This document shows, piece by piece, positions 30,738 through 31,848 of a DNA stretch of 38,893 nt; position 1 is the first letter of the stretch, and every line of letters begins with the position of its first letter. This DNA comes from Bacteroidia bacterium (lineage in GTDB: Bacteria > Bacteroidota > Bacteroidia > J057), in NCBI GenBank assembly GCA_019695295.1, contig JAIBAH010000030.1:1-38893 (forward strand), read 5' to 3'. Below the pieces are notes generated by a model. That model saw nothing but the letters and a program-made list of their open reading frames with translations, did not search any database and had not been told where the DNA came from. The position numbers and the translations under genes were made by a program.

Positions 30738-31538
30738 ATGAGCAAAGCGACAGCATTTTTTGCCTATTCTATCGGAAAAAAAGTAGTAATGGCATTAACC
30801 GGTTTGTTTTTAGTGAGTTTTCTTATCGTACACATGAGCGGAAACCTGCAATTATTTACCGAAAATCCGGTTGCGTTTAATGAATATACCCGTTTTATGA
30901 CCCATAGTCCTTTCATAAAAATGTCAGAGTTCATTCTGATTGCGGGTTTTTTACTGCATATTTATTTTGCAGTGAGATTAAGTACGCTCAATAATGCTGC
31001 CCGTCCTGAAAAATACCATTATAAGAAGGATGGAGAAAGCAGTTCCTGGATGTCCAGAAATATGGGTATCACAGGGAGTGTAATTTTGATTTTTTTAGGG
31101 GTACATTTATATATGTTTTACGGAATCTATCATTACGGAGCGGGAGAGTCAGTAGATGCCGGAACCGCCTTCAAAGAAGTATGGAAACTCACGCAGCCCG
31201 TAAGTGTAACGATTAACAACAATGCTGTAACTATTCCAAAAGGGGAGTTTCTTACCGGAGAAGCAGCTGAAGCCCTTCAGGGACAAAAGGTAATGGCAGT
31301 ATCTATGTATAAAGTTGCGTCAGATGCTTTTCAGCAATGGTGGATTGTGATGTTCTATCTTGCGTCTATGGTTTTAATGGCATTGCATCTTCAGCACGGA
31401 TTTCAGAGTGCTTTCAGAACGCTTGGCCTTGTCCATAAAAAATATACCCCTTTGATTCAGACAGCCGGATTTGCACTTTGTGTGCTTGTGCCTTTATTAT
31501 TTGCACTGATGCCGGTTTATCATTTTTTTGTAAAATAA
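30738..31538 (+). CDS. sdhC: succinate dehydrogenase/fumarate reductase cytochrome b558 subunit
   Basis: This membrane subunit anchors the succinate dehydrogenase complex and carries haem b between succinate oxidation and the quinone pool. Five hydrophobic helices carry histidines typical of the single-subunit b558 family: H32 (LIVHMSGN), H74 (LLHIYFAV), H123 (GVHLYMF), H217 and H220 (LHLQHGFQS). At 266 residues it is about 40 longer than usual because of a hydrophilic insert near 150-195 (TINNNAVTIPKGEF ... GQKVMAVSM) between helices 3 and 4. The flavoprotein (sdhA) and iron-sulfur (sdhB) genes that normally follow are absent; a terminator follows directly. They must lie elsewhere if the complex is functional. 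Confidence 0.92.
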   Translation: MSKATAFFAYSIGKKVVMALTGLFLVSFLIVHMSGNLQLFTENPVAFNEYTRFMTHSPFIKMSEFILIAGFLLHIYFAVRLSTLNNAARPEKYHYKKDGESSSWMSRNMGITGSVILIFLGVHLYMFYGIYHYGAGESVDAGTAFKEVWKLTQPVSVTINNNAVTIPKGEFLTGEAAEALQGQKVMAVSMYKVASDAFQQWWIVMFYLASMVLMALHLQHGFQSAFRTLGLVHKKYTPLIQTAGFALCVLVPLLFALMPVYHFFVK

Positions 31539-31561: not shown

Positions 31562-31599
31562 AAAAAGGGAAACTCCGGATAACGGGGTTTCCCTTTTTT
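31562..31599 (+). terminator. sdhC terminator
   Basis: The arms AAAAAGGGAAAC and GTTTCCCTTTTTT with a 13-nt loop end in six T residues. Confidence 0.85.
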
Positions 31600-31640: not shown

Positions 31641-31730
31641 AAGTAACTGACCATAAAAAACCTGACACAAAAGGAAGTTCTAAAGAAGCAGGTCCTGTAA
31701 GGTTTTTGAAACCTTACAGGACTCAGAATG
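31641..31730. repeat. REP-like 90-bp repeat, copy 1
   Basis: The repeat begins AAGTAACTGACCATAAAAAA and ends in a hairpin. Its arms are AGGTCCTGTAAGGTTT and AAACCTTACAGGACT, separated by about 3 nt. The second copy lies 28 bp further on. The element fits a REP or BIME-like interspersed sequence without coding capacity. Confidence 0.85.
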
Positions 31731-31758
31731 AACGAAGCCAAAATCTTACTCTAATTTT

Positions 31759-31848
31759 AAGTAACTGACCATAAAAAACCTGACACAAAAGGAAGTTCTA
31801 AAGAAGCAAGTCCTATAAGGTTTTTGAAACCTTATAGGACTTAGAATG
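31759..31848. repeat. REP-like 90-bp repeat, copy 2
   Basis: It has the same length and start as copy 1. Only a few bases differ, all in the hairpin or its edge: G to A in the left arm (TCCTATAAGG) is matched by C to T in the right arm (CCTTATAGGA), keeping the stem intact. Confidence 0.85.

Follow-up and report, generated by a model that had tools for sequence, protein, structure and literature searches.

The window analysed here is a stretch of 38,893 nucleotides from the genome of a Bacteroidia bacterium (labelled G000; C-numbers denote its contigs and L-numbers denote loci or stretches). Two composite repeats lie in the tandem intergenic gap 5' of a cytochrome P450 gene (32000–33355, + strand). 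The gene upstream of this gap is an open reading frame of 266 amino acids (30738–31538, + strand) with no Pfam match above the cut-off. The repeats begin at least 103 bp 3' of its stop codon, beyond a separate terminator-like hairpin of that gene (31562–31598, unstranded), which is outside the repeat. Both repeats are on the + strand, in direct and not inverted orientation, with copy 1 at 31641–31730 and copy 2 at 31759–31848 (118 bp from start to start, 96% identity). As the initial annotation had described, they are of equal length (90 nt) and carry hairpin arms of about 15 bp. Each copy opens with the module TL (31641–31667 and 31759–31785, both +), which corresponds to the left terminus of a MITE-like element of 109 bp that is specific to this lineage. 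The spacer module S follows (31669–31691, +, AAAAGGAAGTTCTAAAGAAGCAG; its counterpart in copy 2 at 31787–31809, +), and then the REP-type palindrome H, to which no strand is assigned. In copy 1 the palindrome (31692–31722) reads GTCCTGTAAGGTTT-TTG-AAACCTTACAGGAC, with a perfect 14-bp stem and a loop of 3 nt; in copy 2 (31808–31842) it reads AAGTCCTATAAGGTTT-TTG-AAACCTTATAGGACTT, with a perfect 16-bp stem and the same loop size. Folding of each hairpin as single-stranded DNA gave −14.3 kcal/mol (z of about −8.4 against dinucleotide shuffles), and just one other perfect stem of at least 11 bp exists in the 38.9-kb window. A search of the window against Rfam returned no match. The two copies differ at four positions. 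Two of these constitute a variable stem pair, G-C in copy 1 and A-T in copy 2, and the matched difference in both arms had been read correctly (CCTGTAAGG/CCTTACAGG versus CCTATAAGG/CCTTATAGG). The remaining two are located 5' of the stem (GCAGG/GCAAG) and 3' of it (CTCAG/CTTAG), and give copy 2 a stem of 16 bp instead of 14.

The 90-mer was counted across the genome, a check proposed in the initial annotation, and about 19 near-full copies were found (78–100% identity); the pair in the window is therefore not alone. Copy 1 matches itself at 100% and G000:C60:1182-1271 at 98%. Many further matches cover the first 31 nt only. This surplus is due to the first 27–31 nt of the 90-mer being the TL end of the 109-bp element. 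About a dozen near-full copies of the latter occur, bounded by imperfect terminal inverted repeats, TAAGTAA...TTACTTA (TAAGTAACTGACC... and ...GTCCACTTACTTA), which are about 75% identical over 28 nt as read from the copies. Its interior holds a small hairpin of its own (AATTGTTT...AAACAATT), without H, and nothing beyond a possible TA was seen as a target-site duplication. The segment between the ends is modular: it may be the small hairpin, S-H, or the 3' tail of an IS200-like tnpA together with the repeat of that gene, GATTTCAGGGCTAACGCCCC. Forms with both ends, TL-S-H-TR, occur on C60 and C76. The right end TR is absent from most H-bearing copies, and also from both copies in the window; thus, the terminal inverted repeats expected of a MITE are found in the 109-bp form, and the window copies keep the left end alone. 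The stretches that were read revealed no transposase between the two ends. The 90-mer is a composite of a MITE-like left end (27 nt), the spacer S (24 nt) and the hairpin H. The proposal that the 90-mer itself is the REP unit is not supported, as that role falls to the palindrome of about 33 nt, the remainder being the lineage-specific MITE end and spacer. All H hairpins of this genome belong to the mosaic except three, which stand alone near gene ends; the two on C110 lie in a duplicated stretch. The stand-alone copies on C110 and C120 sit about 25 nt past stop codons.

The mosaic is confined to this genome in our searches. Searches of 12 further genomes from the family did not recover the 90-mer, one genome giving just two matches to the hairpin alone, and 394 other Bacteroidota genomes gave at most short, chance-like matches to the 109-bp element. 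The plasmids, phages and viral contigs searched gave no match. On C109, C30, C76, C77, C79, C90 and C156 the tnpA 3' tail and its repeat array stand behind the MITE left end, so that debris of a coding gene travels within the repeat. A copy on C119 (L223:840-1190) carries another sequence between its ends, CAGTAAAAGACAGACAACGACGG..., which is possibly a captured gene fragment. On C207 (L054:399-431) a 33-nt palindrome of the same design and of different sequence, AAACCCGTTGGATTTTTGAAATCCAACGGGTTT, is near a copy of the 109-bp element. In three related copies (C221b, C48 and C140; L051, L052 and L060) the loop TTG is inverted to CAA within repeats that are otherwise unflipped, which suggests cruciform processing or template switching of the palindrome.

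The hairpin H, unlike the mosaic, is found widely in the phylum. An exact search for CCTRTAAGGTTTTTGAAACCTTAYAGG in the GTDB genomes returned at least 110 stretches, nearly all titled with a Bacteroidota taxon; Cytophagales, Chitinophagales, Sphingobacteriales and Flavobacteriales are among those listed. A census with the pattern CCTNNNAGGTTTNNNAAACCTNNNAGG gave 544 matches in 65 of 395 genomes, at 1–41 copies per genome, and the reversed control pattern gave none. Beyond the 27 nt that were searched, pairs 8 and 9 are matched in 132 and 128 of 141 listed hairpins and pair 10 in 24 of 141. Pairing stops at pair 10, and the unit is thus about 33 nt, with a 15-bp stem and a 3-nt loop. Pair 8 varies in matched fashion among the same 141 hairpins (A-T 106, G-C 22, C-G 4). 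Most H matches in the 110 listed loci sit in gaps between called open reading frames. By simple longest-ORF calls, a stop codon precedes 50% of the listed copies from other genomes by no more than 40 nt, versus 21% expected (p=8e-11), and convergent gaps hold 39 copies in the listed loci compared to 15 in divergent gaps (p=2e-5). Several other Bacteroidota genomes contain the palindrome as inverted doublets with spacers of 20–35 nt, in the manner of REPINs. A 5' GTAG/GGAG foot is absent from H, as it is from the stems listed at RAYT loci. No relevant paper was found to contain the hairpin string.

The 110 listed H loci were searched by tblastn with the truncated RAYT of this genome (C38) as query. 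Seven RAYTs were found among them, and all seven are flanked by H on either side, at distances of no more than a few hundred bases. As these loci were chosen for bearing one H, only the presence of a RAYT and of a further H on its other side counts as independent there. An alignment of the seven genes was used to search 395 Bacteroidota genomes and found relatives in 79. At RAYT loci collected regardless of any hairpin, 28 of 29 have a palindrome of 13–19 bp with a loop of 3 or 4 nt, located upstream, downstream or within the gene. Overall, such palindromes accompany 35 of 36 RAYT loci, versus 10 of 305 control windows of 300 nt (3.3%). The arm sequences differ from one RAYT to another (e.g., AGACCTGACAGGTTTTCAAAACCTGTCAGGTCT, AAACCTCATAGGTTTTTGAAACCTATGAGGTTT, AGATCCGCAAAGTTTTCGAAACTTTGCGGATCT), with size and matched arms kept. 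Among the 79 genomes that encode such a RAYT, 31 contain hairpins of the CCTNNNAGG type, as do 34 of the 316 others (p=2e-8, a value that ignores kinship among genomes). At 20 of the 36 loci the cognate palindrome is inside the RAYT reading frame, mostly preserving the frame (L268, L269, L271-L285, L288, L289 and L296). Most rows of flanking genes have the motifs NHFH, NHIH or NHLH (NH[FIL]H) and YIHKNP, YIHLNP, YIHQNP or YIHHNP (YIHxNP). The NCBIfam model REP_Tyr_transpos (NF047646) scores the flanking genes at 52–69 bits, under its curated cut-off of 80, and their closest solved relative is the E. coli TnpA-REP 4er8 (E=6e-8). Judged by motif, by the sub-cut-off NCBIfam match and by this structural relative, the genes flanked by the palindromes are RAYTs. 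The suggestion in the initial annotation of a REP-like element of a RAYT system is therefore supported for the hairpin family (7/7 and 28/29 loci), and it is the 90-mer as unit for which it is not supported. For the hairpin as a family, spread as a REP by a RAYT is well supported by the palindromes at 35 of 36 RAYT loci, by the REPIN-like doublets and by a presence that tracks that of the RAYT. H does belong to a RAYT-linked family of Bacteroidota palindromes, the link being one of association, from which a mechanism may be proposed.

Two RAYTs were identified in the host genome. That on C197 (L270) is intact and is flanked by a hairpin different from H, AACTTCCCGAAAGTTT...AAACTATCGGGAAGTT; that on C38 ends before the catalytic tyrosine. 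No RAYT flanked by the exact H hairpin was found in this genome. The search for a REP-associated tyrosine transposase that had been proposed thus lends no support to a RAYT acting on H here, since the C197 gene has another hairpin and the C38 gene is truncated. We had taken the C38 gene to be the sole RAYT of its kind in the genome, a view that was dropped once the intact C197 gene, missed by the Pfam search, was found. The Pfam model Y1_Tnp (PF01797) gives no match to this intact RAYT, and Pfam-based surveys may consequently undercount the Bacteroidota branch. The genome also has an IS200-like tnpA on C134 (L048:1000-2145), which has the subclass 1.2 motif Y---Q--HH and scores 66 bits with the NCBIfam model transpos_IS200. 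Inverted arrays of hairpin repeats flank it, GGGGCGTAGCCCTGAAATC / GATTTCAGGGCTAACGCCCC. This gene was considered as the maker of H and was rejected, its own flanking repeat GATTTCAGGGCTAACGCCCC being a different hairpin. Inverted flanking repeats of at least 13 nt were found at 14 of 27 loci (the C134 tnpA and its relatives, L230–L258) versus 34 of 702 cross-locus controls. PMC6006769 assigns no REPs to subclass 1.2.

The initial annotation had regarded the matched change at the variable pair as compensatory and as evidence for selection or mobilisation acting on the fold, an argument that does not survive the inclusion of more copies. The 17 distinct rows of the 19-copy alignment from this genome have A-T in 6, G-C in 4 and an A.C mismatch in 7. 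Unmatched arm changes, named at the outset as what would speak against the claim, hence occur in 7 of 17 distinct rows at exactly the noted pair. The left and right bases vary independently in this genome (Fisher test, p=0.25), and the within-genome covariation score at this pair was matched or exceeded by 84 of 500 shuffles. For the phylum, both triplets were left free in the search pattern, which gave 95 hairpins among the matches listed per genome; many of these are related copies, so the counts do not represent independent events. The noted pair (pair 1) is paired in 46 of the 95, compared to a shuffle mean of 43.9, and 730 of 2000 shuffles were as high. In contrast, the neighbouring pairs 2 and 3 covary, being paired in 87 and 85 of 95 versus 37.5 and 44.4 in the shuffles, none of 2000 of which was as high. 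In 90 of the 95 listed hairpins pair 1 sets a left-arm purine opposite a right-arm pyrimidine, with G.T in 26 and A.C in 23. It is the one stem position tested that shows no association between the arms. We read it as a position that tolerates, and in some genomes fixes, a purine–pyrimidine mismatch, which is G.T on one strand and A.C on the other. In the mismatch-carrying doublets that were read the mismatch has one common orientation; one doublet (G182) is without mismatch. The matched base change noted here does not amount to evidence of covariation, and the apparent compensation came from comparing two copies alone. The case illustrates how a two-copy comparison can mislead, as the compensatory pair that was visible in the window was not upheld with more copies.

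We consider it probable that H is a REP-like element of a Bacteroidota RAYT/TnpA-REP system that was captured into a MITE-like mosaic and later multiplied there, yielding about 19 copies. A cognate Y1 (HUH) transposase would recognise the folded single-stranded palindrome of about 33 nt, the same palindrome that flanks its gene. Copying of the palindrome would yield short units standing on their own, in many cases shortly after a stop codon and in some as inverted doublets. H would have arrived as such a REP, with RACCTATAAGGTTT-TTG-AAACCTTATAGGTY changed to AGTCCTATAAGG...CCTTATAGGACT in this lineage. One H may then have been captured in the genome-specific mosaic, whose terminal inverted repeats are imperfect. 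The unit of left end, spacer and hairpin would next have multiplied to its present number, with two copies as the direct pair in the window. The multiplication of the 90-mer in this genome would thus have been the work of the MITE ends rather than of a RAYT. Arrival as a REP, capture by the mosaic and co-multiplication is the most economical account.

Alternatively, the spread of the 90-mer could be purely that of a MITE whose DDE transposase has been lost or lies in unassembled sequence (ends TAAGTAA...TTACTTA, possibly with a TA target), with the hairpin carried along passively. We regard this as a serious possibility, though not a probable one. The 109-bp elements with their imperfect terminal inverted repeats, the varied cargo (the small hairpin, S-H, the tnpA tail with its REP array, and the other sequence in C119) and the restriction of the element to this genome all fit it. 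Yet TR is missing from the majority of H-bearing copies, the two in the window among them, the stretches read have no transposase between the ends, and the hairpin occurs free-standing elsewhere. A purely MITE-borne spread covers the copies here and not the hairpin family, and so it complements the capture of a REP rather than replacing it. The positional bias of H past stop codons and in convergent gaps, the A and T runs that flank the stems, and the stand-alone copies on C110 and C120 would also be consistent with a bidirectional intrinsic transcription terminator, reused in Bacteroidota and conserved for termination, with the RAYT link incidental. We find this unlikely, as it leaves unexplained both the inverted doublets and the palindromes that flank or lie within RAYT genes (35/36) with a sequence specific to each RAYT; moreover, the window copies already sit behind a separate terminator-like hairpin. 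We give somewhat less credence still to a mutational process, such as template switching or cruciform repair, that would keep the copies palindromic without selection or transposase. Such a process could invert the loop, as in the three related copies, but mismatches at one pair persist in many copies, and it accounts for neither the dispersal nor the RAYT association.

The variable pair calls for a reading of its own. It seems to us very improbable that the G-C/A-T difference is a genuinely compensatory change, maintained because selection acts on the fold. The matched difference between the two window copies is what one would expect of it, and other stem pairs do covary across the phylum, among them pair 8 (A-T 106, G-C 22, C-G 4 of 141), which is outside the search pattern. 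At the noted pair itself, however, 7 of 17 distinct copies have A.C, and the arms are independent both in the genome and in the phylum (46/95 versus 43.9 shuffled). The variable pair may instead mark a strand or an end. We tentatively suggest, as a conjecture that may well prove wrong, that the TnpA-REP enzymes of Bacteroidota use a fixed 33-nt palindrome without GTAG, in which the free pair, four bases above the foot, serves as a polarity mark. The G.T wobble as opposed to the A.C mismatch would tell the enzyme which strand and which end are held. A polarity mark would explain why half of the listed copies have a mismatch at this pair while other variable pairs stay paired, and why the mismatch-carrying doublets share a common mismatch orientation.

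Like MITEs and TIRtrons (PMC3733652), the mosaic of this genome is short and non-coding, is bounded by terminal inverted repeats and encloses a hairpin. It differs from them in that its interior modules are swapped, the REP array of a second, IS200-like tnpA included. No autonomous partner of the MITE-like element was found. The hairpin family, for its part, resembles the REP/REPIN and RAYT systems of Proteobacteria (PMC2817692, PMC3116915, PMC8266576): short palindromes near a Y1 transposase gene, dispersed intergenic copies, inverted doublets, and a sequence distinct for each RAYT. Unlike the REPs of Proteobacteria, the Bacteroidota stems that we have seen lack the 5' GTAG foot and are nearly fixed in size, at about 33 nt with a 3-nt loop. 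By the pattern used they number 1–41 per genome, in contrast to hundreds per genome in Proteobacteria. Work on RAYTs and REPs rests on Proteobacteria with GTAG-tagged REPs, and the main text of PMC6006769 records the Bacteroidota branch as "atypical secondary structures" alone. That branch is TnpA-Y1 subclass 2.6, equivalent to RAYT group 5 of Bacteroidetes, in which such structures, without GT[AG]G, are stated to flank the gene (PMC6006769). The genes described here share with subclass 2.6 the phylum, the lack of GT[AG]G, and gene-adjacent hairpins with copies elsewhere in the genome, and most have HUH and Y motifs similar to its NH[LIV]H and YIH[QN]NP. The missing GTAG foot does not exclude this subclass, which is itself reported without it (PMC6006769). 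The structures of subclass 2.6 are called weaker in PMC6006769, whose main text gives no architecture for them, whereas the palindromes here are strong, perfect and often in frame within the gene. In-gene palindromes are reported there for subclass 2.4, and the flanking RAYTs are for that reason not assigned firmly to 2.6. Compared with that record, the REPs of Bacteroidota now have a definable anatomy of about 33 nt, with a 15-bp stem and a 3-nt loop, to which a phylum-wide census, doublets, a positional variant and candidate enzyme/substrate pairs are added.
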